NCBI RefSeq assembly: GCF_017875835.1
Contig: NZ_JAGING010000001.1
Coordinates: 992,001-1,056,000, forward strand
Reading direction: 5' to 3'
Origin: Psychrobacter sp. PL19
Lineage (GTDB): Bacteria > Pseudomonadota > Gammaproteobacteria > Pseudomonadales > Moraxellaceae
Length of the DNA stretch: 64,000 nt
Below, piece by piece: positions 1,575 through 62,544 of the stretch (position 1 is the stretch's first letter; each line of letters begins with the position of its first letter). Made by a program: the position numbers and the translations under genes. The notes beneath the pieces were generated by a model. It saw only the letters and a program-made list of their open reading frames with translations. It did not search any database and was not told where the DNA came from.

Positions 1575-1714
1575 CTATGGTTAAAATACCTTAAAAACGC
1601 TAGGGTACTGCTGATATAAGCTTTTTGCAGCCTCTGTCTGCGTAGGCACAGCAAGCAAGAAAAACGTATGCCAGCAGTAGGTTATGTCTCGATATTACTT
1701 TTCATTGACTATAT
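1575..1714 (-). repeat. Dispersed MITE-like hairpin repeat, copy 1 (reverse orientation)
   Basis: One of four near-identical 137-140 bp copies. Read on the minus strand it starts ATATAGTCAATGAAAAG and ends with a terminus that is TATAG-like when reversed, so the ends form an imperfect terminal inverted repeat. The interior holds long arms beginning TACTGCTGGCATA and ending ATATCAGCAGTA that pair into a hairpin over a central GTGCCTACGCAGAC segment. This copy lies between two convergent genes and ends only 4 bases before the mrcA stop codon, so it forms the mrcA 3' untranslated region. It contains no open frame of note. Confidence 0.85.
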
Positions 1715-1718
1715 TAGC

Positions 1719-4367
1719 TTATTCTGGCATTGGTGGCATGCGTTTGGCCGGAGTTGGGGTTAATAGGTTCTTCGGAACACTAGTCTCACTAGTAGGTTTT
1801 GTCTGCTCTGGCTTTTCTGAATTATCCGACTCTGCAGTAGGTTTGGGTTCAGGCGCTCTGCGTTGTTGAGCTGTCGGTTTAACCAGCTTTGCGGCGGCAC
1901 TCTCATTACCTTCTCCATTATCACGAGTGACAATACCATCGTCAGTCATTTCTATTACTTGTTGCTGTTGTTTTTTTGACTTGGCACGGTTACTGATTGA
2001 TACCCATTGATACGGAGTGTCTTTGAGTTGGGCTTTCATAAAGTCTATCCATACCGGTAACGCTGCCACACCACCATATTCACGGCGACCAAGGGTTGAT
2101 GGTCGATCAAAGCCCATCCATACGACAGTAGCATTGGTAGGATGAAACCCTGCAAACCAAGCATCTTTAGCGTCGTTAGTCGTACCAGTTTTGCCACCAA
2201 TGTCATCACGTCCTAAAGCCTGGGCACGAACAGCAGTACCACGTTGCACCACATCTCTTAAAATATCTGCCATATCATAAGCCACTTGTGGTTTTAGGAT
2301 TCTCGGTGCTTGAGTGGCAGGTATATACTGCACCGTTGGTGCTTTTAAACGATCTGCTGCTGGACTGGCATCATAGAGACTTAGATTAATAGCCTTATTG
2401 TTCTGTTGAGCATTAGCTGGTTCTTGACCTTCACTATTTTCTAACTTCTGTTCTTCAGCAGCTAATTTTTCTGCTTCAATAAGGTTGTCACGCTCTTCAA
2501 TTAGAGTTTGGTTGCGCTTATCGATTTGCTCATTAAAGCATAAAGCACAAGCCTGCTGTGGATTGGCTTGGAACAACAACTTATTATCATAGTTATAAAT
2601 TTGTTCAATAAAATAAGGTTGAATACGGTGGCCACCATTGGCAAAGGTCGCATAGGCGGTGGCCATTTGTAGCGGGGTTGCTTGTCCAGTACCAAGCGCC
2701 AATGACAGCGTTGTTGGTAGCTTTTCTTTATCCAAACCAAACTGATCTAATAAGTTGCGAGCATCTGAAATACCAATGGCTTGCAGTAAACGAATAGAGA
2801 CCAGATTACGAGACAGATATAGGCCACGGCGCAAGGTAATGTCCCCTAAAAAACGGCCATCAGAGTTCTTAGGCTTCCAATCACCTACCTGAAGAGGACG
2901 ATCTGAGACAATACTATCGGGACGGTAGCCTTTTTCTAGCGCACTAGTGTAGACCAGTGGTTTAATGGTTGAACCTGGCTGCCGCCAACCTTGCAGTGCC
3001 CGGTTAAATTTACTGTGGTTAAAGTCAAAACCACCAACTAAAGCGTTGACTGCACCATTTTCAGGATTTAGAGAAACTAAGCTACCCTGTATATCAGGTA
3101 TTTGTGCCAACTGCCAGTTACCGTTAGCGGTTGGTATCAATCGAATAATGTCGTTCTCACTGACGATTTGCCCGGCATTATTGGGATAGTAACCGATTCG
3201 ATCCGCCGAAAAATGTTTGCGTGCCCAGCTCATACCTGACCAACTAACGGTCACACTTTCACCAGAGAGTATGGTCGCCTCAAAACTGCGAGAATTGATT
3301 TTGGTGACTTTGGCAGGAGACATGTTGGCGTAACGGCGGAAATTTTCAAGCGGTTCGTCATTGGCTTCAGGACCACGCCAGCCATGACGATGATCATAAG
3401 CGACCAGCCCTGTTAGTATAGCGGCTTCCGCATCTGACTGAGCTTTGCTATCTACTGTAGTACGTACTCGCCACCCACCATTCATTACTTGCTTACCATA
3501 ACGGCTAACCAGTGCATAACGGGCCATTTCTGCCAAATACGGCATATTAACATCCAGCTTTTCTTGGTATAGATTAATACCAACTGGGGAGTTAATGGCT
3601 TCATCATGTTGAGCTTTACTGATATAACCAAGTTCATGCATGCGACCAATAATCCAGTTACGCCGAATAAGTGCGCGGCTAGGATTGGCAACGGGGTTAT
3701 ACTTCGAAGGGGCTTTTGGCAGACCTGCCAGCATGGCTACTTCAGCAATAGTAAGGCTATCCAAGGACTTGCTATAATATTTTTTAGCAGCGGCGCGGAC
3801 ACCATAGGCCCCTTCACCTAAGTAAATTTTATTGACATAGAGAGTCAAAATATCATTTTTGCTCAGCTCGTCTTCTATTTTACGGGCCAAAAACAGCTCA
3901 GTAAGCTTGCGATTTAAGGTGCGATCTGGGCTCAAAAAATAGTTCTTGGCCACCTGCATCGTAATCGTTGAGCCGCCGGTTTGGCTATCATCATCAGTAA
4001 CCACTTCGGTAACCGCACGACCCAAGCCTTTTATACTAATACCGCTATGCTGAAAGAAGGAAGCATCTTCTGCCGCCAAAAAAGCATGGGTTAGGTCTCT
4101 AGGAATCTCTTCAAAAGTGATGGGCAGGGACAAACGATTACCATACTGACCAATCAGTTTGTTGTCGCGGCTGTAGATCTGTAGTGGCATTTCTAAACTT
4201 GCAATCTTAATCTCTTGGATGCTAGGTAGGGTTGGTGATATGTACATCGCCATACCATAAAATCCGATAGGTACCGCCAGTGCTAAGATCACGGCCAGTG
4301 CTAGACAGGCAATGAAAAGCCCCACCAAAAAGTTAATGAGACGAACGATAGCATTTTTTTTGGTCAT
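1719..4367 (-). CDS. mrcA: Bifunctional penicillin-binding protein 1A
   Basis: An 882-residue class A PBP that polymerises glycan strands and cross-links peptidoglycan in the periplasm. Residues about 13-40 form the single N-terminal membrane anchor. The glycosyltransferase domain shows AAEDASFFQHSG (catalytic E100) and GGSTITMQVAKNYF (132-144). The transpeptidase domain has the active-site STIK (S466-K469), SRN (519-521) and KTGT (726-729). A charged, Pro/Lys-rich tail occupies about residues 800-882. An inserted stretch rich in Glu, Gln and Asn at about 615-665 precedes the KTG region. The gene is divergent from pilM, the same arrangement as ponA/pilM in Pseudomonas and Acinetobacter. Confidence 0.96.
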   Translation of the reverse strand: MTKKNAIVRLINFLVGLFIACLALAVILALAVPIGFYGMAMYISPTLPSIQEIKIASLEMPLQIYSRDNKLIGQYGNRLSLPITFEEIPRDLTHAFLAAEDASFFQHSGISIKGLGRAVTEVVTDDDSQTGGSTITMQVAKNYFLSPDRTLNRKLTELFLARKIEDELSKNDILTLYVNKIYLGEGAYGVRAAAKKYYSKSLDSLTIAEVAMLAGLPKAPSKYNPVANPSRALIRRNWIIGRMHELGYISKAQHDEAINSPVGINLYQEKLDVNMPYLAEMARYALVSRYGKQVMNGGWRVRTTVDSKAQSDAEAAILTGLVAYDHRHGWRGPEANDEPLENFRRYANMSPAKVTKINSRSFEATILSGESVTVSWSGMSWARKHFSADRIGYYPNNAGQIVSENDIIRLIPTANGNWQLAQIPDIQGSLVSLNPENGAVNALVGGFDFNHSKFNRALQGWRQPGSTIKPLVYTSALEKGYRPDSIVSDRPLQVGDWKPKNSDGRFLGDITLRRGLYLSRNLVSIRLLQAIGISDARNLLDQFGLDKEKLPTTLSLALGTGQATPLQMATAYATFANGGHRIQPYFIEQIYNYDNKLLFQANPQQACALCFNEQIDKRNQTLIEERDNLIEAEKLAAEEQKLENSEGQEPANAQQNNKAINLSLYDASPAADRLKAPTVQYIPATQAPRILKPQVAYDMADILRDVVQRGTAVRAQALGRDDIGGKTGTTNDAKDAWFAGFHPTNATVVWMGFDRPSTLGRREYGGVAALPVWIDFMKAQLKDTPYQWVSISNRAKSKKQQQQVIEMTDDGIVTRDNGEGNESAAAKLVKPTAQQRRAPEPKPTAESDNSEKPEQTKPTSETSVPKNLLTPTPAKRMPPMPE

Positions 4368-4550
4368 AATAAGACTTATTAATTAAGATTTGCAACAAGT
4401 AGATGATTATACCTTGAACAAAATAAGCAGGTCATACTAAATGTGTAATTGACCTTGATTTATTCTTTAAACACTTTAGTCTATCTATTGAGTAACTTAT
4501 TGTATTCAAATATTACAACTAACTATCAAATTTTGCATTTCACATAAGGT

Positions 4551-5615
4551 ATGGAGTTTGTGAGGCTATTTTCTTCTAAAAGTAGACATTTAATTGGGAT
4601 GGATGTCTGTGCCACCTCAGTAAAATTGGTTGATATACAGCGTCAGCAAGGGATGTTTCATCTAAGATCATATGGTATCGAACCGTTGCCTGTAGGCGCG
4701 GTAGTCGACAAACTCATCGTAGATACTGAAGAAGTAGGAAATATTATTGCCGACTTAGCACGGCGTTGTCAGGTCGTCGGTAGCAATGCCGCAACTGCGG
4801 TCTCAGGCTCAGCAGTGATTACCAAAATCATAGATATGGACATGGTGCTCAATGATGTTGAACGCGAGGCCCAAATTCGCCTAGACGCTGATCAATATAT
4901 TCCTTATCCACTCGAAGATGTCAATTTGGATTTTGAAGTCCTAGGCCCTTCTTTGATCAATGATGACATGGTACAAGTGCTGTTGGCTGCTTCGCGCTCA
5001 GAAAACGTGGATCAACGAGTTGATGCCCTAACTTTTGGGGGTCTGCAAACTAAAATTATGGACATAGAGACGCATGCTATTGAGCGTGCTTTTGGATTGA
5101 TGATAGATAATTTACCAAATATGTCGGAGTTGGTGGCCTTGGTTGATATCGGACACAATCAAACCACTCTATATGTCGTTAAAAACGGTGAATTTGTTTA
5201 CAGCCGCGAGCAGTTATTTGGTGGTGCGCAGCTGACCGAGGCGATACAAAATCGCTATGGCCTAACCTCTGAAGAAGCAACCATTAGCAAGCGTGAACTC
5301 ACATTGCCTGACGACTACTATCCTGAAGTGCTAACGCCTTTTATGGAAAATGCCATTCAACAAATTACCCGCTCGTTGCAGTTTTATTTTTCCTCGAGTC
5401 AGTATAGCAGTATTGATCATGTAGTGCTCGCAGGTGGTAGCAGTTCTATCCCAGGTTTGGCCGGTATGGTACAACAGAAGCTGGGCGTAACTGTCAGCGT
5501 CGCCAATCCATTTATCAATATGACTATCGGTCCGCAGGTGGATAGTGAGCAGCTCGCAATTGATGCCCCAAGTTTAATGGCTGCTTGCGGTCTAGCGCTA
5601 AGGAGCTTTGACTAA
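4551..5615 (+). CDS. pilM: Type IV pilus assembly protein PilM
   Basis: A 354-residue cytoplasmic actin-like ATPase fold protein that binds the cytoplasmic tail of PilN and connects the inner-membrane alignment complex with the pilus motor. Typical features are LIGMDVCATSVKLVDI near the N-terminus, VALVDIGHNQTTLYV (phosphate-2-like) around residue 195 and VVLAGGSSSIPGL (adenosine-binding-like) near residue 295. The start is ambiguous: the ATG has AAGG only one base away, while GTG at 4560 would give an N-terminus closer in length to other PilM proteins. First gene of pilMNOPQ; its stop overlaps the pilN start by one base (TAATG). Confidence 0.95.
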   Translation: MEFVRLFSSKSRHLIGMDVCATSVKLVDIQRQQGMFHLRSYGIEPLPVGAVVDKLIVDTEEVGNIIADLARRCQVVGSNAATAVSGSAVITKIIDMDMVLNDVEREAQIRLDADQYIPYPLEDVNLDFEVLGPSLINDDMVQVLLAASRSENVDQRVDALTFGGLQTKIMDIETHAIERAFGLMIDNLPNMSELVALVDIGHNQTTLYVVKNGEFVYSREQLFGGAQLTEAIQNRYGLTSEEATISKRELTLPDDYYPEVLTPFMENAIQQITRSLQFYFSSSQYSSIDHVVLAGGSSSIPGLAGMVQQKLGVTVSVANPFINMTIGPQVDSEQLAIDAPSLMAACGLALRSFD

Positions 5616-6274
5616 TGGCTCGTATTAACCTGTTACCGTGGCGACAAGAAGAGCGCGAACGTCGCAACAAAGAATTTATTACCCTGGTGGTCGCCGTTAC
5701 TTTACTGGCGTTATTAGTCGCCTTTGCGTCGTGGAGTTATTTTAACAATGAGCTCGATGAGCAGCGTGCTGCCAATGCTTTGATTACACAAGAAAATAGC
5801 CGCTTAGATACTGTGCTCACCGATATTGATAGTTTGGAGCAGCGCCGCGAAGATATTATCTCACGTATGCAGGTTATCCAAGATTTGCAGGGTTTACGTC
5901 CGGTACCTGTTCGATTATGGGATGACCTTGCCAAAGCCATACCACCTGCACTTTATCTAAATAATCTCAAGCGTGAAGGCGATTTATTGACTCTAACGGG
6001 TTTGGCGGACAATCCGAACATTGTATCAAGCTTGATTCGTAATCTGGATAGCAGTAAGTGGCTGGGTGATTCGGCAGTCAGTAATATTCAGCAAAACATA
6101 AGTGCTTATGAGACTGCTCCTGCCCTTAACGAGAGGGGTACGACTGGTGAGCAGCCGCGTCCGATTTATCCTGAGGACAGCTATGTGCAGTTCGTGGTGA
6201 CTACAAAAGTACAGTCTGAGTCTGCCGTACCTGCTGATATTGATGGCAGCACTGGGCTTGGAGGTAAGCTATGA
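5615..6274 (+). CDS. pilN: Type IV pilus inner-membrane alignment protein PilN
   Basis: A 219-residue bitopic protein: the N-terminal MARINLLPWR motif is the conserved PilM-binding peptide, followed by one membrane helix (about 21-43), a coiled coil (about 46-85) and a periplasmic ferredoxin-like domain. It forms heterodimers with PilO in the periplasm. Translationally coupled on both sides: the start overlaps the pilM stop, and the stop overlaps the pilO start as ATGA. The C-terminal about 40 residues are Ser/Thr/Gly-rich and probably disordered. Confidence 0.95.
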   Translation: MARINLLPWRQEERERRNKEFITLVVAVTLLALLVAFASWSYFNNELDEQRAANALITQENSRLDTVLTDIDSLEQRREDIISRMQVIQDLQGLRPVPVRLWDDLAKAIPPALYLNNLKREGDLLTLTGLADNPNIVSSLIRNLDSSKWLGDSAVSNIQQNISAYETAPALNERGTTGEQPRPIYPEDSYVQFVVTTKVQSESAVPADIDGSTGLGGKL

Positions 6275-6981
6275 AACTCAGCCGCAAAAAAAGCCCAGTT
6301 AAAACCAACAAAGCCGCTTTACGCACTAAAAAGTCGTTTGATTTTAATGAGTTTCGGCGTAGCTTTGAGTCACTAGATACCGAAAACTATGGCAGTTGGC
6401 CACTATCCGTTAAGATAACAGTGATTGGCTTCATCATTGCTCTCATTGCAGCGTTGTCATGGGCGTTACCGATTAGCAGTAAAATCGATGAGATCACAGC
6501 TGCTGAAAGTGAGCAGCAAACCCTGCTTGATAGTTACCGTGAAAAACAATCGCGCGCCCGCCATCTAGAGGCTTATCAAGCACAAGTCATACAGATGGAA
6601 ACTGAGTTCAATGCCTTACTCGATCAGCTACCAAAAGACACTCGCGTGTCAGAGCTGGTAGAAGGCATTAATATGACCGGGGTCGGCAGTAATATACGTT
6701 TTCAAGATATTTCTGTAGAAGCTGAGATCGAAAATGAGTTCTTTATTGAACAGCCTATACGTATAGCGGCGTTAGGGGAGTACCATCAATTTGGTAACTT
6801 TATTAGTGGCCTTGCTGCGTTACCGCGTATTATTACCATGCATGATTTTGAAGTCAGTAATCCCCAGCCATCTTTAGATGTCCTACCGGAACTCAATTTA
6901 GTATTACAGACGAAGACCTACCGCTCAAAAGAAGTCACTCCTGAAGGCGGCGAGACTGACACTACTGCAGGAGGCAACTGA
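6271..6981 (+). CDS. pilO: Type IV pilus inner-membrane alignment protein PilO
   Basis: A 236-residue protein with a basic cytoplasmic N-terminus, one membrane helix (about 47-68), a coiled coil (about 70-120) and a periplasmic ferredoxin-like domain containing LDQLPKDTRVSELVEGI and the region around GEYHQFGNFISGLAALPRI, both typical of PilO. It pairs with PilN and contacts PilP to link the inner membrane to the secretin. The stop overlaps the pilP start by one base (TGATG), so translation is likely coupled. A short Gly/Thr-rich tail follows the domain. Confidence 0.95.
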   Translation: MKLSRKKSPVKTNKAALRTKKSFDFNEFRRSFESLDTENYGSWPLSVKITVIGFIIALIAALSWALPISSKIDEITAAESEQQTLLDSYREKQSRARHLEAYQAQVIQMETEFNALLDQLPKDTRVSELVEGINMTGVGSNIRFQDISVEAEIENEFFIEQPIRIAALGEYHQFGNFISGLAALPRIITMHDFEVSNPQPSLDVLPELNLVLQTKTYRSKEVTPEGGETDTTAGGN

Positions 6982-7514
6982 TGATTATCAGAAAATTGCC
7001 CACGCTACTGATGCTAAGTGTTACTGTCCTATCGCTGACTGGTTGTAGCGATCGTATTGGCATGGCAGAGCAGGCAATGGCTGATATACGCAACCAGCCT
7101 GCTCAGCCCATTGAACCGCCACCAAAATCTGAGCTGGTAGAAGACTTTGTCTATAGTGCTAACATGTTGCGTAGCCCGTTTTTGCCACCAAGTTTGGTCA
7201 ATGTGCAAAGTCCTACTACCTCTATTGATGGCGTGCGCCCTGATATCACGCGCACCAAAGAACCTCTCGAACAGTACCAGCTATCGCAACTGACCTTTCG
7301 TGGTATGTTAATTTCGCCTGAAGGCCAACAATATGCATTAGTGCAGCGTCCTGATGGTTCGGTTGCTAGTGTTAAAGTGGGTGATTATCTTGGCTTAAAC
7401 GACGGACGTATTGTTGAAGTTACGTCGACCCAGATTAATTTGATTGAAATTGTACCAGACAGCCGCGCAGGGTTCATTGAAAGACCCCAGTCGTTGGTCT
7501 CTCCTATAAATTAG
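6981..7514 (+). CDS. pilP: Type IV pilus inner-membrane lipoprotein PilP
   Basis: A 177-residue lipoprotein: signal sequence with lipobox LTGC and predicted lipidated Cys22, a proline-rich linker, and a C-terminal beta-sandwich of the PilP/GspC homology-region type (LSQLTFRGMLISPEGQQYAL, then VKVGDYLGLNDGRIVEVTST). PilP binds PilN/PilO with its N-terminal part and the PilQ N0 domain with its C-terminal domain, bridging the periplasm. Part of the tightly packed pilMNOPQ operon; 27 bases separate it from pilQ, which has its own GAGGAA ribosome site. Confidence 0.94.
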   Translation: MIIRKLPTLLMLSVTVLSLTGCSDRIGMAEQAMADIRNQPAQPIEPPPKSELVEDFVYSANMLRSPFLPPSLVNVQSPTTSIDGVRPDITRTKEPLEQYQLSQLTFRGMLISPEGQQYALVQRPDGSVASVKVGDYLGLNDGRIVEVTSTQINLIEIVPDSRAGFIERPQSLVSPIN

Positions 7515-7541
7515 GTCGGCACATTTTTTGAGGAATAAATA

Positions 7542-9884: not shown

Positions 9885-9911
9885 TGTGAGGCCGTTGATG
9901 TTTAGTAGAAT

Positions 9912-9942
9912 AAAAAAGTAAGCCTATGTGCTTGCTTTTTTT
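9912..9942 (+). terminator. Terminator after pilQ
   Basis: Stem AAAAAAGTAAGC / GCTTGCTTTTTT with one T-G wobble, a 6-base loop, and a T run. It lies 27 bases after the pilQ stop and implies that aroK starts its own transcript. Confidence 0.85.
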
Positions 9943-10049
9943 GAGCTGATTTTTATTACGAGTCAATTTTTACTGATAATAATCGTGGCTCATTACTAGC
10001 CAGAATATTGATGACGTTGTATGATAGTTAATTTAGCTGAGTGAGTATT

Positions 10050-10616: not shown

Positions 10617-10708
10617 CTTTAAAGAAACCATAAACTGGATTAACAAAGATCCTCAGTTAAAATCACTTTATTAAAGCTACCCCATTACCGATGCTTAAGG
10701 AATATTTC

Positions 10709-18468: not shown

Positions 18469-19980
<1,512 letters not shown>

Positions 19981-20137: not shown

Positions 20138-20274
20138 CTATAGTCAATGAAAAGTAATATCGATACATAACGTACTGCTGGTATAAGTTTTTCTTGCTGT
20201 GCCTACGCAAACAGAGGCTACAAAAAGCTTATAGCAGCAGTACCGTCGCGTTTGTTAAGGTATTTTAACGATAG
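20138..20274 (+). repeat. Dispersed MITE-like hairpin repeat, copy 2
   Basis: 137 bp, starting CTATAGTCAATGAAAAG and ending TATTTTAACGATAG. It is 3 bases shorter than the other copies, mostly from loss of one GCTT unit in the TTGCTTGCTG segment. It lies downstream of the gltD terminator and upstream of the FUSC gene; it is the only copy not between convergent genes. Arms TACTGCTGGTATAAG and CTTATAGCAGCAGTA pair into the long hairpin. Confidence 0.85.
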
Positions 20275-26822: not shown

Positions 26823-26962
26823 ATATAGTCAATGAAAAGTAATATCGATACATAACCTACTGCTGGCATAAGTTTTTCTCGCTTGCTGTGCCTACGCAGA
26901 CAGAGGCTGCAAAAAGCTTATAGCAGCAGTACCGTCGTGTTTTTAAGGTATTTTAACTATAG
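26823..26962 (+). repeat. Dispersed MITE-like hairpin repeat, copy 3
   Basis: 140 bp, starting ATATAGTCAATGAAAAG and ending GTATTTTAACTATAG. The internal arms TACTGCTGGCATAAG and CTTATAGCAGCAGTA are nearly complementary. It sits between the convergent AbgT and HAD genes, directly before the terminator at 26983. Confidence 0.87.
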
Positions 26963-26982: not shown

Positions 26983-27015
26983 AAAAACCCTTGCTAGATA
27001 CTGGCAAGGGTTTTT
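26983..27015. terminator. Bidirectional terminator between AbgT and HAD genes
   Basis: A perfect 12-bp stem AAAAACCCTTGC / GCAAGGGTTTTT with a 9-base loop. The A and T tracts on the two sides suit termination of both convergent genes. Confidence 0.9.
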
Positions 27016-33272: not shown

Positions 33273-35009
33273 ATGGACAATCAAGGCCAAGACAATTTAA
33301 CCCGTCGCGATGACAAGGTTTGGTTAAAAACTTATGACGAGTTGGGACTAACTTACGATATTGATATGCCTGCTGACAATACTTCGCTTATTGATATCTT
33401 TGAGAAAAGTTTCGCGAAGAATAGCGATAAAACGGCCTTTGTATGCATGGGCTCTGAACTGAGTTTTCATGAAGTGGACTTATACAGCCGTCAAGTCGCT
33501 ACTTATCTGCAGTCGCTAGGACTGGTGAAGGGCGATAAAGTCGCGGTCATGATGCCTAATGTGTTGCAATTACCCGTATCTGTTCTGGGTGTACTGCGTG
33601 CAGGTTTCACCTTGGTCAACGTCAATCCTCTATACACTACCAAAGAGCTCGAACACCAGTTAACTGACTCTGAAGCCAAAGTGCTACTCTTAGTTGAAAA
33701 CTTTGCTAAAACCTATCAAGACATCGGTCGTAACGTGGTTGATCACGTGGTCATCACCGGTATGGGTGATTTGATGGGTACCCTAAAAGGCTTTATGGTC
33801 AATACCGTGGTTCGCCATGTCAAAAAAATGGTACCGGATTTTAAGATTGCTAACAGTCTTGACTTTAAAGCGATGCTCAAGCAAAGCCCTGCCAGTAAAT
33901 ACAAGCGTCCAACTAATATTGAGCTCGATGATATTGCGGTTTTACAATATACCGGCGGTACCACTGGCGTAGCAAAAGGTGCGATGCTCACTCATAAGAA
34001 CTTAGTGGCCAACCTCATTCAGTGCGACACTTTCTTAGGTAGTGCCTTTGATGAGTTTGATAAAGGTGGTGAGCAGGCGGTGATTATGACTGCGTTACCG
34101 CTCTATCATATTTTCTCATTTACGCTTTGCGGTATGTTCGGTATTCATCGTGGTTGTATTGGATTATTAGTGCCCAACCCACGCGACCTTGGCAGCTTAA
34201 TAAAAGCGTATAAAGGTCATCCACCCGCGCTTTTCCCAGCGGTAAATACTTTATTTAATGCCCTGGCCAATAATGAAGAATTTAAGGCTTTAGATCACAG
34301 CAAGTTGCGCGTGACGATGGGTGGCGGCATGGCGGTGCTTAGCTCGACAGCAGAAAAATGGCGCCAAATAACTAATAATATTATTGTCCAAGGTTATGGT
34401 CTATCTGAAACCTCTCCTGTCGCCACGGCCAATCCTATTAGTAGTCCAGCCTTTAGTAGCACTATTGGTGTGCCATTGCCAGCGACTGATGTTGCTATCT
34501 TAGATGAGGCAGGTAATGAGGTGCCACTGGGCGAGCGTGGCGAGATTACTATCCGTGGTCCGCAGGTAATGAAAGGCTATTGGAAACGTGACGATGCCAC
34601 CGCTGAGTCGATGACGGCTGATGGATTTTTCCGTACTGGTGACATCGGTATTATGGATGATGCTGGTTATGTGACCATCGTTGATCGCAAGAAAAACATG
34701 ATCTTGGTCTCTGGCTTTAACGTTTATCCCAACGAAGTCGAAGAAGTCATGGCTGGACATCCGAAGATTTTAGAATGTGGTGTCATTGGTGTCGTAGACG
34801 AAAAAAGTGGTGAGACCCCGAAGATTTATGTGGTGCGTAAAGATAACAGTCTTACTAAAGAGGAAGTCCTCGCCTATGGTAAAGAGCATTTGACTGGCTA
34901 TAAGCGCCCACGTCATGTTGAATTCATCGATGAGCTACCAAAGACCAATGTTGGTAAGATTTTACATAAAGATTTGCGTGAACTCGAAGAGAATAAACAG
35001 GCTAAATAA
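33273..35009 (+). CDS. fadD: Long-chain fatty acid-CoA ligase (FadD-like), first copy
   Basis: A 578-residue adenylate-forming enzyme that activates fatty acids with ATP and CoA for beta-oxidation or lipid synthesis at the inner membrane. The P-loop-like AMP motif is YTGGTTGVAKGAML (about 225-238); YGLSETSP binds adenine; GEITIRGPQVMKGYW, FRTGDIG and DRKKNMILVSGFNVYPNEVEE form the hinge and C-terminal domain; KTNVGKILHKDLR holds the catalytic lysine. A CAGGAG site precedes the ATG, with a second AAGG nearer. A close paralogue follows 377 bases downstream, but the terminator after this gene argues for separate transcripts. Confidence 0.93.
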   Translation: MDNQGQDNLTRRDDKVWLKTYDELGLTYDIDMPADNTSLIDIFEKSFAKNSDKTAFVCMGSELSFHEVDLYSRQVATYLQSLGLVKGDKVAVMMPNVLQLPVSVLGVLRAGFTLVNVNPLYTTKELEHQLTDSEAKVLLLVENFAKTYQDIGRNVVDHVVITGMGDLMGTLKGFMVNTVVRHVKKMVPDFKIANSLDFKAMLKQSPASKYKRPTNIELDDIAVLQYTGGTTGVAKGAMLTHKNLVANLIQCDTFLGSAFDEFDKGGEQAVIMTALPLYHIFSFTLCGMFGIHRGCIGLLVPNPRDLGSLIKAYKGHPPALFPAVNTLFNALANNEEFKALDHSKLRVTMGGGMAVLSSTAEKWRQITNNIIVQGYGLSETSPVATANPISSPAFSSTIGVPLPATDVAILDEAGNEVPLGERGEITIRGPQVMKGYWKRDDATAESMTADGFFRTGDIGIMDDAGYVTIVDRKKNMILVSGFNVYPNEVEEVMAGHPKILECGVIGVVDEKSGETPKIYVVRKDNSLTKEEVLAYGKEHLTGYKRPRHVEFIDELPKTNVGKILHKDLRELEENKQAK

Positions 35010-35386: not shown

Positions 35387-37195
35387 ATGACGGACAATAT
35401 CAATAAAGCAGTAGCAGACAGTGTCTCAGCCAACAGCAACAGTGATAAAGTGCCCAAAGAGGCACAATCAATGGCTGAGACCAACGCATTTCCTACCATG
35501 CCGAATATACCTAGCGACAGACCGTGGCTTAATGCCTATGAGCGTTATGGTATTAGTGCCACTATTGATATGCCAGATGACAACACCTCTTTGCTTGAGG
35601 TGTTTGAGCGTAACTTTCAGCGTTATGGGCGAAAACCTGCTTATATCTGTATGGGCGCGTCGATTACCTATAAGCAACTGGATCTATATAGCCGTCAAAT
35701 CGCCAGTTATTTACAGTCGCTAGGACTGGTCAAAGGCGACAAGGTAGGCGTAATGATGCCTAATCTTTTGCAGTATCCGATTGCTGCTCTTGGGATTATC
35801 CGGGCAGGTATGATTTTGGTCAATATTAACCCCTTATATACCAGCCGTGAGCTTTCGCATCAGCTAGATGATAGCGGTACTAAAGCATTATTCATCGTCG
35901 AGAACTTTGCCAAGACCTATCAAGAAGCGAAAAGCAAAGGTCAAGTCGAACAGGTCATCGTCTGTAATCTTGGTGATATGTTAGGACTGGTAAAAGGAAC
36001 GGTGGTCAACCTAGTCGCGCGTCATATCAAAAAAATCATTCCTTCTTATAGCTTGCCGAGCAGCATCAGCTTTAAGCAGGCGCTAAACGCGGTATCGGCT
36101 AGCAAATATAAATGCCCTGACTTAAATTTAAGTGATGTGGCTTTATTACAATATACGGGTGGTACGACCGGTGTGGCCAAAGGCGCGATGCTGTCGCACG
36201 GCAACCTAATTGCTAATATGCTACAGATTGGCGCTGTCATAAACAGTGCTTTTGAAGACGATGCTAATGCGGAGGATGTTATTCTAACTGCGCTACCCCT
36301 GTATCATGTGTTCTCATTTATGGTCTGCGGTATGTATGGGATGTACCAAGGTTATGCTGGTTTATTGATTCCTAACCCTCGCGATCTTGACGGCCTGATT
36401 AAAGAAATGGGTAAATACAAGCCCTCGATTATCCCAGCGGTAAATACTCTATTTAATGGCTTGGTACATAAAGACAGCTTTGCACAATTAGATTTTTCTA
36501 ACCTAAAAGCCGCTATTGGTGGTGGTACATCGGTATTGCCTAGTGTGGCCAAAGATTGGCACAAAATTACTGGCCTGCCTATTGTCGAAGGTTACGGGCT
36601 ATCTGAAACGTCACCTGTGGTCGCTTTTAACCCGATGACTATCGCTGAATTTACTAACAAAATTGGTATTCCAGCGTCCAGCACTGATGTGGTATTGATT
36701 GATGATGATGAGAACGAAGTGGCCACTGGTGAGCGTGGTGAGATTTGCGTTAAAGGTCCACAAGTCATGATCGGCTATCAAAATCGTCCGGAGGAAACAG
36801 CAGAGACTTTCACTGCGCATGGTTACCTAAAAACAGGTGACATTGGCATCATGGATGAAAAAGGCTTTATCAAAATTGTTGATCGCAAAAAAGATATGAT
36901 TTTGGTTTCCGGTTTCAACGTTTATCCCAATGAAATCGAAGAAATTATGACTGAACATCCTGCGGTCAAAGAGTGCGGCGCAATTGGTATTCCAAGTGAA
37001 AAGCGTGGCGAAGATCCTAAGATTTTTGTGGTCAAAAAAGGCGAGGTAACAGAACAAGAGCTGCTCGACTTTGGTAAAAAGAACTTTACTGGCTATAAGC
37101 GTCCACGCCACGTACAGTTCGTTGATGAATTACCCAAATCAAACGTTGGTAAAATTCTGCGTAAAGAGTTGCGTAAGATGGAAGGCTTAGATTAA
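35387..37195 (+). CDS. fadD: Long-chain fatty acid-CoA ligase (FadD-like), second copy
   Basis: 602 residues with the same motif set as its neighbour: YTGGTTGVAKGAML (about 256-269), YGLSETSPVV, GEICVKGPQVMIGY, KTGDIGIMDEKG, DRKKDMILVSGFNVYPNE and KSNVGKILRKELR. Compared with the first copy it has an N-terminal extension of about 30 polar residues (rich in Asn, Ser and Lys), while the rest aligns closely, pointing to tandem duplication and divergence. The two probably differ in chain-length preference or regulation; this cannot be read from sequence. Confidence 0.92.
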   Translation: MTDNINKAVADSVSANSNSDKVPKEAQSMAETNAFPTMPNIPSDRPWLNAYERYGISATIDMPDDNTSLLEVFERNFQRYGRKPAYICMGASITYKQLDLYSRQIASYLQSLGLVKGDKVGVMMPNLLQYPIAALGIIRAGMILVNINPLYTSRELSHQLDDSGTKALFIVENFAKTYQEAKSKGQVEQVIVCNLGDMLGLVKGTVVNLVARHIKKIIPSYSLPSSISFKQALNAVSASKYKCPDLNLSDVALLQYTGGTTGVAKGAMLSHGNLIANMLQIGAVINSAFEDDANAEDVILTALPLYHVFSFMVCGMYGMYQGYAGLLIPNPRDLDGLIKEMGKYKPSIIPAVNTLFNGLVHKDSFAQLDFSNLKAAIGGGTSVLPSVAKDWHKITGLPIVEGYGLSETSPVVAFNPMTIAEFTNKIGIPASSTDVVLIDDDENEVATGERGEICVKGPQVMIGYQNRPEETAETFTAHGYLKTGDIGIMDEKGFIKIVDRKKDMILVSGFNVYPNEIEEIMTEHPAVKECGAIGIPSEKRGEDPKIFVVKKGEVTEQELLDFGKKNFTGYKRPRHVQFVDELPKSNVGKILRKELRKMEGLD

Positions 37196-51841: not shown

Positions 51842-51854
51842 TAAGAACCACACA

Positions 51855-56274: not shown

Positions 56275-56311
56275 GTTGTACGTAGCTTGCAGGTAGCTAC
56301 TGTCCTTATAA

Positions 56312-56350
56312 AAACATGGCTTATGATGAGCGTTATCATAAGCCATGTTT
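56312..56350. terminator. Hairpin terminator after valS
   Basis: A perfect 16-bp stem AAACATGGCTTATGAT / ATCATAAGCCATGTTT with a 7-base loop. The T run is only TTT then GTT, so it may need help from a factor, but the hairpin is very stable. Confidence 0.75.
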
Positions 56351-56405
56351 GTTAGTGGTAACCCATCAACTATACTTATAAATTTATTAGAGCTGGAATA
56401 CGCTT

Positions 56406-57398
56406 ATGGATAGTGTTTTTTTTAAGCTTGTCATTATCGCTTTACTACTTGCTATCCCTATATTTTTCTTATATCGAAAAACACGACAAGATTCTCCAAA
56501 GTATAGACAACTAAAGACTTATTCTACTATAGCCTTTGCTAGAGAAGAGTATTGTGAGAGTCAATTTAAAAGTACGATGCTGCTGTTATTGACTTGCGGT
56601 AGTCATGAGCAATCCACAAAAAGTAGAAGCTCCTATGATAATACCTATGAGCAATATAGCTTTATTTTTAACAAAGTCACTGAATTACAAGAGCAGGTCA
56701 ACGCTAGCATTGCTAAGTTAGAAGCCAATATCTCTCTTATAATAAAAGAATTAAAAAACAGTAGCCGCTTAGTCAATGATGCTGAAAATATAAAAATATT
56801 AATAGAAGAAATAAAGTCTACCGACAAGATAGATATCGAAGTAGAGAAGATCGATAGTCTTGGTTTTACTAAAATAGAGCGATTGCGGCAGTGGTTGCCA
56901 TCCATATCAATATTTAACGGTGTTATGGCTGGGTTATTAACGATATTAGTCATTTGGTTCTTAATACTAGCCTTGGGCGGTGCGGGTACAACACTCATGA
57001 GCTACGTTATCGTTTTAATCATGTTAATCATACCTTTAGTTATCCTCTCTGCACTACAATCTCGCGTTAATATCAGAAATTTTGGATATCAAGATACGTT
57101 AATCATAGAGAAGATAACATCTATTCTAGATAACTCGCAAAAACTAGAAGACATACTCGCATCTCTTAAAGCTAGCAATCATACATTAGACGTTTACTTC
57201 AATGAGATAGCGACTATCAATCATGAGCTAACTGAGGTTCTATATAAAAATAGTGCCTATGTTAAGGCAGCTAGGAGATCGAAGGCTTTGTTTAAAAAAG
57301 AGGCTTATACGGAGATAGAGCAGCAATTAGTAAAAAGGATAAGTGTGTTGGTATATGATTTAAGAGGAGAGGTGGCGGTTAGTTCGGTACTGGGTTAG
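56406..57398 (+). CDS. Hypothetical membrane protein with coiled coil
   Basis: A 330-residue protein I cannot assign. One N-terminal helix (about 5-22), a charged Lys/Arg-rich segment, a predicted coiled coil (about 85-150, rich in Glu, Lys and Asn), two helices (about 175-196 and 199-220) and a C-terminal helical region with many Lys residues. The Lys/Ile/Asn-rich composition and local GC are lower than in neighbouring genes, which could mean accessory DNA. Transcribed alone after the valS terminator; no partner gene is evident. Confidence 0.65.
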   Translation: MDSVFFKLVIIALLLAIPIFFLYRKTRQDSPKYRQLKTYSTIAFAREEYCESQFKSTMLLLLTCGSHEQSTKSRSSYDNTYEQYSFIFNKVTELQEQVNASIAKLEANISLIIKELKNSSRLVNDAENIKILIEEIKSTDKIDIEVEKIDSLGFTKIERLRQWLPSISIFNGVMAGLLTILVIWFLILALGGAGTTLMSYVIVLIMLIIPLVILSALQSRVNIRNFGYQDTLIIEKITSILDNSQKLEDILASLKASNHTLDVYFNEIATINHELTEVLYKNSAYVKAARRSKALFKKEAYTEIEQQLVKRISVLVYDLRGEVAVSSVLG

Positions 57399-58071
57399 AA
57401 TTTGAAGTATTTCACCAAACATATGTTTTATTAGTAAAGCGACTGTTTAAGTGGTTGGTGTTGAATCAAACAAGTTAATTAAGTTATAAAGGCAATGAAT
57501 TGCGATAACAATATAGATACTCGCTTATGATAAAGCTATACCGTTGATACTTGGCTCAAATCCAACCTAGTAAATTTAAGGTTTGCATACAAAAGCCGTT
57601 CCAGATAGCATTGTGAGCGTTTTTTTTATACCAGTAAACAAAGTATGCTTTCTTAAATATTTCAACTGGCATAGAATGGCCGCTAGTTATCTCATCAACG
57701 AGCCATGCTCACTGTTAAGTTGGGCTAATAGCGACGATACAGTACTGAAAATATTGAATGTCAGAAGTAGAAGTCCAATAGAGGTAGAGATTAATAGCTT
57801 TGTATCAGTTAAACTAAACAAATAACTGTCGCAAATAAGTTGAGCGACATAGTAGTAGCTCGTACAGTAAGCGACAGTGTCACTACAGTAAAAGCGGCCG
57901 GACTAGTAGCTCTGTATTAACGAAAAACTTGGATTAACCAGATAAGTAAGTCCTTATAATCCAGACGTTTGAGTCTACTCAAATTAGAACTCAGGCATTA
58001 AAATTTGTTAATGTATAGAGCAATAATATAGGTAGTATATTCGAGCCGTTCTTTCATCGAATCATGGAGCA
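57399..58071. other. 673-base stretch without a supported gene
   Basis: AT-rich. It includes an 80-codon open frame (57583-57825) starting TTG, whose sequence with Cys, Phe and Trp residues looks like neither a membrane protein nor a known family, and it has no good ribosome site. The stretch may hold a decayed gene, but I see no proof. Confidence 0.45.
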
Positions 58072-58542
58072 ATGATTATCCTAAATCTATACGTTTTTTT
58101 GTGGGTTATTCTTACATCTTCTTTACTTATTATTACGGTAAGTAAGATAAATGCCTATAGGGCCGTGGTTAGAAGAGGGGCTATTGCTAGAAAACCCATA
58201 CCTGGTAGCTTTGATATCGAAAATAGCTTTTATAAAACTGATGCAACTTGGCACGATATTATATTTTTTCAGGGCTCTATATCAGGGTTAATTGCTTTTT
58301 TATTACTGTTAGTTTTTAAGATTAAAGTTTTATTTCCTGTGATGAATACTCTTCTTGGTGTCTTTTTCCAAGTTATATTATTTTCGTTGGCCGTTTATTT
58401 TTTTGGGGTAGCGATTGAAAAGCTTGGTATCACCCTAGGAAAACGTAATATTAACGACAAACAGATGAATGAAAAATATGTTGTGGTCATAATGCTCAGT
58501 TACTTCTTATCGTTTATTGTTTTCGTATTTTCGTTAGTATAA
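58072..58542 (+). CDS. Hypothetical membrane protein
   Basis: A 156-residue protein with four hydrophobic helices (about 5-22, 62-82, 88-112 and 136-155) and little else. GGAG lies only two bases before ATG 58072, so a slightly different start is possible. No family recognised. A Phe/Ile/Leu-rich, AT-rich composition like the gene at 56406 sets both apart from their neighbours. A terminator follows at 58579. Confidence 0.6.
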   Translation: MIILNLYVFLWVILTSSLLIITVSKINAYRAVVRRGAIARKPIPGSFDIENSFYKTDATWHDIIFFQGSISGLIAFLLLLVFKIKVLFPVMNTLLGVFFQVILFSLAVYFFGVAIEKLGITLGKRNINDKQMNEKYVVVIMLSYFLSFIVFVFSLV

Positions 58543-58578
58543 AATATATTTATAACTGCTTTATTCCTGCTATAGAAG

Positions 58579-58611
58579 ACCGCTCTAGGTTGAATGCCAA
58601 GCGGTTTTTTT
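58579..58611 (+). terminator. Terminator after the hypothetical membrane protein
   Basis: Stem ACCGCT / AGCGGT with a 15-base loop and a run of seven T residues. Confidence 0.7.
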
Positions 58612-58845
58612 ACTTAATCAAGCGTATCAAATAGTAGTTTCCCCCTGAGCTGATACACTTGTTGTTCAGTAAATATTAGCTGCTTCGTAAGACATGTCAC
58701 TTACTTAACTACTCAACAATAATACGCTTGTATAGCAAAACGACTCAAATTCAGTATTGCACGGTTTTGTCAACTACTGCATGCTAAGCTACTCATATAG
58801 GTAATAAACATTACCTACCATTTATCACCTTTTGATACCGCAGCC

Positions 58846-59268
58846 ATGACTGAACAAAAACGCACCTTCTATTACCGTCCTAAGACCAACCAATCCAATA
58901 ACCCTACGGTGCGTTGGCTGTTCTTGCTATTAGGCTGGTTATTTTTTGCATTAGGAATAATTGGCGTGCTGCTGCCAGTAATGCCAACCGCGCCATTTGT
59001 ACTACTGGCGGCAGGATGTTGGGCACGCAGTTCACGTCGTTTTCATTTTTGGCTCATTAATCATCGGTCCTTTGGCAAGTTTGTACGTGACTGGGAAGAT
59101 AAGCGTGCTGTGCCTCGTTATGCTAAGTGGCTAGCGACGATTATGATGACTATATCCACCAGTATGCTGTTTTATAAACTGCCAGACGCCACGCTGTGGA
59201 TGGCTTGGGTGGTCGCAGTAATTTGTACTGGAGTAGCAATATTCATGTTCCGACTACCTGACGCATAG
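58846..59268 (+). CDS. YbaN/DUF454 family membrane protein
   Basis: A 140-residue inner-membrane protein with three helices (about 25-45, 47-62 and 100-135). DUF454 signatures are GIIGVLLPVMPTAPFVLLAAGCWARSS (here spanning about 38-63) and the HRSFGKFVRDWEDKRAVPRYAKW segment. E. coli YbaN belongs here; function is unknown. Stands alone before the cold-shock gene. The N-terminal about 20 residues are a polar cytoplasmic extension. Confidence 0.85.
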   Translation: MTEQKRTFYYRPKTNQSNNPTVRWLFLLLGWLFFALGIIGVLLPVMPTAPFVLLAAGCWARSSRRFHFWLINHRSFGKFVRDWEDKRAVPRYAKWLATIMMTISTSMLFYKLPDATLWMAWVVAVICTGVAIFMFRLPDA

Positions 59269-59364
59269 TCAAGAACTCCTTCAATTCTTAGACATCTGAG
59301 AGGCTTAAAAGGGGTGAAAACAGGTGTACATTTGTAACCTATTACCTTAATTGCCAGATAGGGC

Positions 59365-59393
59365 TTGCGCTATTGGTAGAAGCCCCTTATAAT
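59365..59393 (+). promoter_or_regulatory. Sigma-70 promoter of the cold-shock gene
   Basis: TTGCGC, exactly 17 bases, then a perfect TATAAT. Transcription would begin near 59400, giving an untranslated leader of about 140 bases before the ATG at 59543, as found for cold-inducible cspA-type mRNAs. Confidence 0.8.
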
Positions 59394-59542
59394 ACGCACA
59401 AGCTTAAGAGCAGTTCTGCACCAAATCATTACCTCGTAGTATTAGTTATAATCCTTCGTTTTAATATTTATTGTTCAGTAGCTATTTGCAAGCGTTGTCG
59501 GTCATTAGACCATTATTAGATTAAAAAATTAGGATTATGAAT

Positions 59543-59752
59543 ATGTCAGATACTATGAAAGGTACAGTTAAGTGGTTTAACGAAGCTAAAGGCTTTGGTT
59601 TTATCGCTCCAGAAAGCGGTGCTGATGTTTTTGCTCATTACAGCGAAATCACTGGTTCAGGCTTCAAAACTTTAGCTGAAGGCCAAGAAGTTGAGTTCAC
59701 AGTAACTCAAGGTCAAAAAGGCCCACAAGCACATAACATCGTTGCTATCTAA
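59543..59752 (+). CDS. Cold shock protein (CspA family)
   Basis: 69 residues from ATG 59543, which has AGGA eight bases upstream; the ATG at 59537 would sit only two bases after that site. A single cold-shock OB-fold that binds single-stranded RNA/DNA. RNP1 is KGFGFI (16-21), RNP2 is VFAHYS (29-34). Full family length, no signal peptide. The about 140-base leader predicted from the promoter suggests a thermosensing or stability role as in cspA. Strong terminator follows. Confidence 0.95.
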
Positions 59753-59806
59753 TTAGCAAAATGTGGTTATCGCTTACTACAACAAGTAAATGACAACTAC
59801 AATATG

Positions 59807-59842
59807 CGAAAAAAAACGAGCCTCCGGGTTCGTTTTTTTTCG
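59807..59842. terminator. Terminator after the cold-shock gene
   Basis: Stem CGAAAAAAAACGAGCC / GGTTCGTTTTTTTTCG (one G-T pair) with a short loop. Long A and T tracts on both sides suit the convergent YeiH-like gene as well. Confidence 0.9.
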
Positions 59843-59921
59843 TCTGCTATTTACGTAGAGTATTGTGCTCGATGGTTAAGTTGATCAAGTAGGTTAGGTC
59901 CATAAGTAGAATAGAAAATTT

Positions 59922-61007
59922 TTAAATAAAGCCAATACCGACGTTAATCAGACCACCACCAATAATTAACCAGCCAAACATGATCGCGCCTAATAGTAGC
60001 GGTTTAACCCCCGCTTGTTTGATAGCGCTTAGATGAGTGGTTAAGCCTAAGGCAAACATGGCCATGGTCAAAAGTAGATCATCCAACATCACCATAGTGC
60101 GCTCTAAGCTTACAGATATATTTAGCCAGGTATGTAACAGTACGATCAGGATAAATATAAAGGCAAACCAAGGTATCTTGACTTGTTTGGCGCGGGCCAT
60201 AAATGACAGTTTTTTGCCGCCTTTAGTATCGCCACTAGGGGTTAGCGCAAACGATAGAATAAGTAAGAACGGTGCGAGCATCATGACCCGAATCATTTTG
60301 GTGACTACCGCGGTATCACCAACTTCAGGGCTGATCGCGTTACCCGCGACGACGACTTGGGCGACTTCATGAATGGTTGAGCCGGTATAGACCCCATAGT
60401 CTTGAGCACTGAGCCAGGGCTGCAACCAGCCTAGACTGTATAAGAATGGATAGAGCAGCATAGCGATAGTACCGAATACTACGACGGTTGCTACTGCGAT
60501 GGTTACTTTGTGGGCTTCTGCCTTGACGACCGGTTCTGCGGCAATGACCGCTGCTGCCCCGCAAATACTAGCGCCTGAGCCAATTAATAGCGTGGTTTTC
60601 TTATCGATTTTTAGCCATCTAGTGCCCAGCCAATAGGTTAATAAAAACGTCGAAGTTAACACCAGTGCATCACTCATCACCGCTGGCATGCCAACACTAG
60701 CGACTTGGGTAAAGGTCAGCTTAAAACCGTAAAACATGATGGCAAGCCGTAAAATCTCCCCTTTTGCAAAGCAAACCCCGTCATTTAAACGTTCAGCGAC
60801 CTTAGGATAGATAGTATTGCCCAGTACCATGCCAATCAAAATGGCTAAGGTTAATGAAGATAGCCCAACGATGCGGCCATTTGTCCAGGTATCTAAGCTA
60901 GTATTTAGCCACAAACAAAACAAGCTGCCGAGCAATACGACAATAAGCCCTGCAAGATGCTGACCTCGTGGAAAATAACTGGCAACTGATTGGGTAAAAG
61001 CGTTCAT
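59922..61007 (-). CDS. YeiH/UPF0324 family membrane protein
   Basis: 361 residues from ATG 61007 (AGGA nine bases upstream); the frame continues upstream to 61106, but the added residues have no membrane or signal features. About ten helices. UPF0324 features are LILGMVLGNTIYPKV-like start, LRLAIMFYGFKLTFTQV, LLIGSGASICGAAAVIA and HEVAQVVVAGNAI. The family is annotated as putative sulfate or sulfonate exporter. It is divergent from a LysR regulator, the same pair as yeiH/yeiE in E. coli. Confidence 0.9.
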   Translation of the reverse strand: MNAFTQSVASYFPRGQHLAGLIVVLLGSLFCLWLNTSLDTWTNGRIVGLSSLTLAILIGMVLGNTIYPKVAERLNDGVCFAKGEILRLAIMFYGFKLTFTQVASVGMPAVMSDALVLTSTFLLTYWLGTRWLKIDKKTTLLIGSGASICGAAAVIAAEPVVKAEAHKVTIAVATVVVFGTIAMLLYPFLYSLGWLQPWLSAQDYGVYTGSTIHEVAQVVVAGNAISPEVGDTAVVTKMIRVMMLAPFLLILSFALTPSGDTKGGKKLSFMARAKQVKIPWFAFIFILIVLLHTWLNISVSLERTMVMLDDLLLTMAMFALGLTTHLSAIKQAGVKPLLLGAIMFGWLIIGGGLINVGIGFI

Positions 61008-61339
61008 GACTAACGATCCTATTGACGCATTTGTTCGATTGTAGACTGGCAAGGTAGTGATAGTATTTATTAAGACCTTAATGAAGTCATTATTACCTAT
61101 CATCATTAGGTCATTTAAATGTGCATAAGCTTATGAATGGACATTATAGGGCAAGTCAATCTATAATAAAAACAGATTAATAAGATATAAACTATCGATT
61201 ATTTAGGTTGAATAGCCAGTTTATCTACTTAAATGATAGTATTTTGCATGAGTTCACGAGTCGCAGAGTGGTGCTATAAGTGGTGCTATAAAAAGGAAGC
61301 TACAAAAAATAAGGCTATAACAAAGGAAGAATAAAAATA
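61008..61339. other. 332-base divergent promoter region (YeiH-like / LysR)
   Basis: Divergent region with an expected LysR binding site. An AT-rich dyad-like TGGTGCTATAAGTGGTGCTATAAAA duplication near 61270 (GTGGTGCTATAA twice) was seen. Exact operator not assigned. Confidence 0.5.
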
Positions 61340-62323
61340 ATGAAAAAAGCAGTTCAGACCTTACCGAAGATTACCTTGAAGCAGCTGGCGGTATTCGTCA
61401 GTATTTACCAAACGGGTAGCACCAGCCGCGCTAGTGAGCAGTTACATTTATCACAGTCGGCGGTCAGTAGTGCTTTAACAGAGCTAGAGTCTCGACTACA
61501 AATGCCGCTATTTGAACGGGTCGGGCGTAGACTTAACCAACATCCTAACGCCCATCCGGTTTACATCCAGGCCCAAGCCATCCTAGGACAGTCGCTAACG
61601 CTTGAGCACTATCATAAGCACCATGCTGAGCAAATTCATATCGGCGCCAGTACGACTATTGGTAATTACGTATTGCCGCCATTATTGGCTAAGCTATACG
61701 GTGTACTTCCTGATGCTAACGTCGATATGTATATTGCTAATACCCAAGAAGTGGTCAGCGAGGTTGAGCGGTTAAATATTGATATTGCACTGGTGGAGGG
61801 TAAACCGCGGCCACTCGATACTAAAGTTATCGAACAGCGTGCATGGCGTACGGACACCTTAATGATCTTCGCCAAGCGCAATAGTAAATGGCTAGACAGC
61901 ATTGGCATTCATATTGAGAGTAATATTGAGAGTAATATTGATGGTTATGATGACGGTCATGATGACGGTGCAGACTGTTATCGATTGAGCATCGCCCAAT
62001 TGGCAACGCTACCGCTATTGGTACGTGAGGCAGGCTCGGGGACACGGCAAATTATCGATGAGCAGTTATTACAACATATGCCTGATGCTGAGGTCATCAT
62101 GGCCATTCAGCAGTCAGAGGCGATTAAGCACATGGTCAGTGCAGATATTGGGCTCGGTTGTTTGTCACAACATGTGATTGATGCAGAGTTAGCCAGTGGC
62201 GAGTTAGTACAGGTAAAAGTAGCAGGGATAGATTTGGCGCGTACTTGGTGGTTGGTTTGGCACAAAGCCCGTCACCAAAGTCCGATTTGGCAGACTTTTA
62301 TTGATATTATTCAAGCGGGCTAA
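61340..62323 (+). CDS. LysR-type regulator (YeiE-like)
   Basis: A 327-residue LysR protein. The winged HTH (about 12-72) contains LKQLAVFVSIYQTGSTSRASEQLHLSQ, whose helix matches the family, followed by a linker helix and a periplasmic-binding-like effector domain (about 95-320). Within it an insertion of about 20 acidic/Asn residues (IESNIESNIDGYDDGHDDG) comes from a 12-bp repeated DNA segment at 61913-61969. Adjacent and divergent to the YeiH-like gene, which it probably controls, as for E. coli YeiE. The inducer is unknown. Confidence 0.88.
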   Translation: MKKAVQTLPKITLKQLAVFVSIYQTGSTSRASEQLHLSQSAVSSALTELESRLQMPLFERVGRRLNQHPNAHPVYIQAQAILGQSLTLEHYHKHHAEQIHIGASTTIGNYVLPPLLAKLYGVLPDANVDMYIANTQEVVSEVERLNIDIALVEGKPRPLDTKVIEQRAWRTDTLMIFAKRNSKWLDSIGIHIESNIESNIDGYDDGHDDGADCYRLSIAQLATLPLLVREAGSGTRQIIDEQLLQHMPDAEVIMAIQQSEAIKHMVSADIGLGCLSQHVIDAELASGELVQVKVAGIDLARTWWLVWHKARHQSPIWQTFIDIIQAG

Positions 62324-62404
62324 ATTCAAGAAAACTAAATTCAAAAGGGCGAGGACTCTATAGAACGAAGGCTTTATAGTAAGCAATCTGCAAATCTATT
62401 ACAG

Positions 62405-62544
62405 ATATAGTCAATGAAAAGTAGTATCGATACATAACCTACTGCTGGCATAAGTTTTTCTTGCTTGCTGTGCCTACGCAGATAGGGGCTGCGAAAAGTT
62501 TATAGCAGCAGTACCGTCGCGTTTTTCAGGTGTTTTAACTATAG
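62405..62544 (+). repeat. Dispersed MITE-like hairpin repeat, copy 4
   Basis: 140 bp, starting ATATAGTCAATGAAAAG and ending GTGTTTTAACTATAG. It lies between the convergent LysR gene and the usp pair. This copy has the most base changes in the right arm (GCGAAAAGTTTATAG). Confidence 0.87.

Follow-up and report, generated by a model that had tools for sequence, protein, structure and literature searches.

An abundant Psychrobacter MITE family, very probably moved by IS630 enzymes, shares a conserved hairpin core with families of different ends

A 64,000-nucleotide stretch of the Psychrobacter sp. PL19 genome (the window; positions 992,001 to 1,056,000 of contig NZ_JAGING010000001.1) holds four dispersed copies of a short repeat with inverted ends and an internal hairpin. 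What are these repeats, what moves them and why do they carry a hairpin? Every feature of a miniature inverted-repeat transposable element (MITE) that we tested is present, so the repeats are a MITE family. The best explanation of the whole is a MITE moved by IS630 transposases whose hairpin core is kept through mobility, and we hold it with good confidence.

The preliminary description of the window had listed the four repeats, and all are present, with their limits refined here by a family hidden Markov model (HMM). Copy 1 lies at 1576–1713 on the minus strand, TATA to TATA inclusive (HMM match 1.1e-47). The others are on the plus strand: copy 2 at 20139–20273 (6.4e-41), which has 135 nt and lacks a short piece of the core, copy 3 at 26824–26961 (5.6e-49) and copy 4 at 62406–62543 (1.7e-44). 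The element proper is a gene-free unit of 134 bp (TAGT...ACTA), a size that rules out transposase coding.

The window copies end in TATAGTCAAT... and TATAGTTAAAATACC..., and, as had been claimed, the ends are imperfect inverted repeats (TATAGTCAAT / TATAGTTAAA) with 17 of 30 positions common to both. From the IS630 end comparison, the left terminal repeat of copy 3 is at 26824–26853 (plus strand), bipartite as TATAGTCAA-N7-TAATATCGATACA, and the right one at 26932–26961 (minus strand). The proposed folding is found on both strands, with a z of −2.3 for copy 3 and −2.2 for its opposite strand. The folding energy of copy 3 is −37.6 kcal/mol; shuffled versions average −29.6 ± 3.5, and 5 of 200 do equally well.

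The hairpin module, an outer stem plus the conserved core, spans 26850–26941 in copy 3 (plus strand), where covariance model R1 gives 99.7 bits and covariation is seen. R1 also places it at 1596–1687 in copy 1 (minus strand, 97.6 bits), 20165–20252 in copy 2 (plus, 84.7 bits) and 62432–62523 in copy 4 (plus, 91.9 bits), the rows of R1 including window copies 3 and 4 themselves.

The insertion duplicates a TA target. Empty sites, which the preliminary description had named as a check, were found in relatives for two subfamilies, with one TA where the filled site reads TA-element-TA. At copy 3, ATAAATA/TAGTC...AACTA/TA-GCTG faces the empty ATAAATA-GTTG of P. urativorans ACAM311 (L042; G and L label genomes and loci), a net gain of 136 bp, so the duplicated TA stands at 26824–26825 and 26960–26961. 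In the second subfamily, genome G045 has GTCCTA/TAGTC...GACTA/TA-GTTGACTG, a net gain of 137 bp, and seven relatives have the empty site with one TA (L385, L387–L392; with a substitution in L387 and L389). For copies 2 and 4, the relatives' flanks are diverged too far to define an empty site.

The bases flanking 131 copies reveal a target preference that is palindromic around the TA (A at −3 mirrored by T at +3, A or C at −1 by G or T at +1) and contains little else. Together, the short length (<500 bp), lack of coding, inverted repeats, TA duplication and high dispersed copy number bear out the earlier reading of the repeats as a MITE. The outcomes named beforehand as refuting that reading, a genome free of further copies or relatives free of empty sites, both failed to appear.

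The family has about 140 copies in the host genome, a single closed contig of 3.12 Mb of which the window is a part, and the abundance predicted from four copies thus holds. The left-end 33-mer with up to 3 mismatches occurs at 139 sites (67 plus, 72 minus) and the right-end 33-mer at 122 (67 plus, 55 minus), while reversed-sequence controls of each give 0. Over the 601 kb surrounding the 33-mer matches (19% of the genome), the HMM lists 131 near-full copies (66 plus, 65 minus; 101 of exactly 138 nt) and 26 partial matches. No two of the 131 are identical, and they lie at a median of 3.6% and a maximum of 31% from the consensus; therefore, the family does not look fresh in this host.

The family is also spread in the genus. 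The 140-base query that had been suggested for searching other genomes matches 44 of 96 (host included), all among the 60 of the genus and none among the 36 of other families. The hairpin covariance model matches 61 of 199 genomes in a family-wide sample (60 from the genus, 1 from a different one) and 9 of 341 in an order-wide sample, all in the genus, under stricter filters that lose weak matches. Twelve low-copy genomes, picked for an earlier match to this model and re-examined, have 1 to 3 hairpin matches each. By blastn the family has no match in plasmid or phage records, and one core 32-mer is not matched exactly in any viral contig.

An AbgT-like protein of the window is, over its best segments, 94% identical to its counterpart in P. 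urativorans ACAM311 and 93% identical to the one in P. frigidicola. At L341, L342, L343, L344 and L348, in five other genomes, lies one hairpin element that with its near flanks is identical over the printed 176 nt in G029, G038, G027 and G056, and in the fifth genome, G005, differs by a single base. To judge from these sequences, this looks like recent horizontal spread.

What enzyme moves the family? The TA-flanked ends had been likened to IS630/Tc1 or IS5-type target sites, and IS630 elements with apparently similar ends are present in the host, as found by a transposase search that covered the IS630-family domain (PF13358, DDE_3) in host and relatives. Of the 16 host matches, 7 belong to a 915-bp element with TATAGTCAAT ends (TATAGTCAATTTCC... 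and TATAGTCAATTCAAAA...). This element and an 890-bp one in G043 each have HTH_Tnp_IS630 and DDE_3 in two frames, as is usual in many IS630 elements. Across the genus, 42 distinct IS630 ends have TATAGTCAA, about 7 variable bases, TAAAA and then a GATACA-like or TGTTAT-like motif.

Scored with a position weight matrix of these ends (positions 6–32), none of 1295 control TATAG sites reaches the MITE left end, and 6 of them outscore its right end. By plain identity over positions 6–29 (24 bases; 1297 TATAG control sites), the host left end fits best the subgroup of about 890 bp (L358), at 18/24 with 4 controls equally good. Other subfamilies come closer: G157 reaches 21/24 at its left end (no control as good) and 19/24 at the other, and G045 20/24 at both (1 control each as good). 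The remaining identities are 20 and 16 for L293, 20 for the left end of L335, and 16 and 16 for G137.

From these likenesses we infer movement by IS630 enzymes, best those of the ~890-bp subgroup, and IS630 is very probably what moves the family. An IS630-family DDE transposase would act in trans on the gene-free 134-bp unit, and insertion would go into TA targets with TA duplication. The one host locus at which an end of the ~890-bp type could be recognised is L135, a decayed copy with a partial domain match and a stop codon. Therefore, amplification of the family in this host is probably over or slow.

Several observations weigh against the IS630 assignment. Among 152 stricter TATAG(T/C)(C/T)A sites scored at positions 9–32, 2 reach the left-end score and 3 the right-end score. 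The host right end fits IS630 ends weakly, at 15/24 with 36 of 1297 controls equally good, and two of the 16 host IS630 matches (L133 and L134) have no recognisable ends. G137, a genome of 2,650,701 bases with at least 21 hairpin matches, has five identical copies at unrelated sites (19 compared) and only three partial DDE_3 matches, and G033 has at least 21 hairpin matches and no DDE_3 match.

A transposase outside IS630, or one supplied from elsewhere and then lost, would account for such copy-rich genomes without an intact DDE_3 match. It would also suit L349 in G038, where inverted ends of another kind, AGGACTTACGCA...TGCGTAAGTCCT, enclose a diverged hairpin (E 1.2e-5). However, the TA duplication, the palindromic TA target and the bipartite ends all fit IS630, and we regard another mover as highly improbable. 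A second weak hairpin match, at L354 (E 6e-4), has ends that are not clear.

The hairpin might instead have belonged to an autonomous IS630 element. In 55 IS loci searched, it was matched only in L358 and L366, and this origin was rejected because the match beside the domain is in each case a separate element adjoining an IS630 of the 890-bp type. Thus, in G043 two hairpin MITEs directly adjoin such IS630 copies (1087–2126 in L358 and 1178–2271 in L366), as if the IS630 end itself had been a target.

With IS630 taken as the mover, the middle of the element still calls for an explanation. Copies in other species differ in length and ends but have the inner core in common, close to TTTTTCTTGCTTGCTGTGCCTACGCAGACAGAGGCTGCAAAAAA, while the apical loop is variable in distant members. 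That the hairpin core is common to families with different ends is a point that the earlier sequence reading could not see. In our reading, the central hairpin has been inherited by several such MITE families in the genus. The hairpin between the L349 ends suggests that it is not tied to IS630-type ends.

Between lineages, the core changes least. In 31 full-length loci compared with the host consensus, 3.4% of the core differs against 11.5% of the ends and 29.3% of the outer stem, and in the 11 best-per-genome loci the values are 2.6, 9.8 and 25.4%. In 45 aligned hairpins (alignment A1), column identity is 94.6% in the core, 79.7% in the outer stem and 71.9% in the flank. A1 takes 43 of 51 loci, 8 being omitted as apparent near-duplicates, and 2 of the 4 window copies. 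Its 20 loci L275–L294 were picked from BLAST hits, several of them core-only, which inflates core conservation; the 31-locus test avoids this bias only in part, its loci also being found by BLAST with the window element.

Within the host, this difference is absent. Rare variants in 118 resident copies affect 1.74% of the core, 1.88% of the ends and 2.03% of the stem (core versus ends p 0.57, core versus stem p 0.15), the other 13 of the 131 copies being omitted as more than 10% divergent. The low core change between lineages, together with equal variation in residents, therefore points to constraint in lineages still moving and not in resident copies, and this seems to be how the core is held. 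Faster change in the ends and outer stem may, however, have separate causes.

We propose that the core is kept because lineages that retain it would spread better, for instance through folding or through binding of a host factor during transposition, and that resident copies would not serve the host. Judged from sequence patterns, selection on mobility has about an even chance of being the cause. In the 601 kb, one copy has its hairpin deleted (2912326–2912386) and one has it shortened (2590867–2590954). These are in line with selection on spread, though two copies are too few for proof.

The aligned sequences also indicate that the stem covaries between lineages. Both sides are changed in 12 of 18 outer-stem pairs of A1, and the whole structure has 76 cells of two-sided change against 23.9 ± 3.8 in shuffles and at most 15 with slid partners. 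Two results count against reading this hairpin as selected. The number of pair types shows no excess (23 against a shuffled mean of 23.0), and in G157 (L437–L444) 8 of 12 fetched copies have TGCTCGATGC replacing AGACAGAGGC in the core. This altered-core subfamily looks young and amplified, and the core letters are therefore not indispensable.

The conserved core and the covarying stem could both be mutational by-products, if template switching at a quasi-palindrome corrected the two arms jointly and families exchanged cores by recombination. The outer-stem changes are mostly double (76 against 12 one-sided), as template switching would give, and the number and similarity of the copies would allow recombination. 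Taken by itself, the outer-stem covariation could be explained in this way. Template switching, however, cannot hold unpaired core letters constant between lineages, and the core of the residents is no less variable. We therefore consider the by-product account possible but doubtful.

An extension of selection on mobility is that the hairpin is a separate selfish module. Its core would be recognised by some factor and would raise the mobility of whatever ends are attached, of the IS630 type and perhaps of others. The recogniser would be a host protein, or else an RNA or single-stranded DNA fold would matter, and the hairpin would persist while ends and stems get replaced. We find this rather unlikely.

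Alternatively, the hairpin might serve the host as an RNA or DNA device, such as a terminator, an mRNA stabiliser or a protein site, and be kept like REP or BIME. The surroundings of the copies bear on this. In the window, copy 1 fills a short gap between two convergent genes, which end 16 and 5 bp from it; copy 2 lies between two tandem genes and copy 4 between convergent genes; copy 3 is also between convergent genes, with a stop codon on one side and, by eye, a terminator-like hairpin on the other. The wider counts come from a crude gene caller run on stretches picked around copies, so that the gaps compared are a non-random sample.

In these counts, the copies are intergenic, as a host device would be, and none of the 131 near-full ones shares more than 25 bp with a called gene. 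Called genes flank 124 of them on both sides; tandem gaps contain 74 of these, convergent gaps 39 and divergent gaps 11, compared with 110, 22 and 17 copy-free gaps of the same stretches. Convergent gaps are thus common, and in tandem gaps 50 of 74 copies are nearer the upstream stop (p 0.003). Such a 3′ placement also follows from selection against promoter insertions, however, and the gap distribution fits removal of promoter-damaging insertions.

As to termination, the gap of copy 1 (1560–1720) has, by eye, a terminator-like hairpin in 25 of 27 relatives' loci; L394 lacks one, and L408 has none in its printed part. A terminator scan found 0 in the two regions that it covered, and none at 1560–1720, but it is insensitive and gives weak evidence, since it missed an evident hairpin at about 26985–27015. 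A loose rule for an intrinsic terminator, a GC-rich hairpin with a T run right behind it, is passed by only 18 of 131 copies. Of the convergent gaps, 29 of 40 with a copy have another terminator-like hairpin, against 10 of 23 copy-free ones. A general terminator role is therefore not supported.

Other host roles fare no better. The resident cores, as variable as the ends, speak against a device, and the whole window has no Rfam match above the gathering score, the matches around copy 3 all being sub-threshold. A strand-specific RNA was rejected: resident stems have 55 A-C and 43 G-T mismatches (two fixed pairs omitted), with no strand clearly favoured. Across species the counts are 52 and 12, favouring the other strand, but these rows are related and we do not rely on them. 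The idea that the core is a signal used across the genome, for instance for DNA uptake, was also rejected: among 33 k-mers of the core (17 with 12 nt and 16 with 14 nt), 32 occur 0 times, and one once, outside the elements in the 601 kb. A host function for the repeats is thus not supported by these tests, and we judge such a device improbable.

The usual picture of a MITE is a pair of ends around an expendable interior. In this family, it is the interior that changes least between lineages, whereas the copies resident in a genome drift freely, and this contrast sets selection on mobility apart from selection for the host. Since there are many subfamilies, copy-rich genomes and, in G157, a core that varies naturally, one can directly test if a DDE mini-transposon benefits from a hairpin in its interior.

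Two further pairs of neighbouring genes were noticed in the window. The small paralogous genes at 62821–63288 and 63497–63958 are 73% alike in parts of their DNA and look, by eye, like universal stress proteins. The genes at 33273–35009 and 35387–37195 have 53- and 132-nt stretches in common, at 81 and 73% identity, as would be expected of paralogues.

How does the family compare with known systems? Like REP/BIME and ERIC, it consists of high-copy intergenic palindromes, and REP are linked to RAYT transposases. For P. arcticus, RepRanger lists 2,260 REP candidates (PMC12306157), which may include hairpins of the present kind. MITEAba12, from the same bacterial family (Moraxellaceae), is a 113-bp MITE with 16-bp ends and a 9-bp target duplication, where the elements here have TA, and it has a different proposed parent, ISAba12 (as described in parts of PMC6382973, whose main text has 0 occurrences of 'Psychrobacter'). 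Nezha of cyanobacteria, compared by its description in part of PMC3049150, is likewise a MITE tied to an IS through its ends, which are ISNpu3-like, with host and IS both different.

Correia elements begin TATAG. According to parts of PMC2229807 and PMC9330008, the Correia/NEMIS elements of Neisseria resemble the family in TA termini, TA target duplication and a hairpin RNA, the 155-bp type being intergenic; they differ in their 24- to 26-bp ends and in the IHF site of the 155-bp type. A literature search, made mostly without subscription papers and on partial listings, found no description of the Psychrobacter family and nothing for the core letters. Nor is the family described in the parts available of PMC9330008, PMC6382973, PMC12306157, PMC10969869, PMC3049150 and PMC2229807.

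The closest likeness is to RUP of pneumococcus, which is about 107 bp long, folded and present in 110 copies in one genome, with IS630-Spn1-like ends, a TA target and IS630-Spn1 as its proposed mover (parts of PMC3049150 and PMC2229807). Compared by description, the two share small size, more than 100 copies, the TA target, folding and, apparently, IS630-like ends, although the hosts are different, Psychrobacter and pneumococcus. By this analogy, the family likely works like RUP as an IS630-moved element. We know of no core module shared among several RUP-like families, and the shared conserved hairpin sets the present family apart as a variant of MITE.

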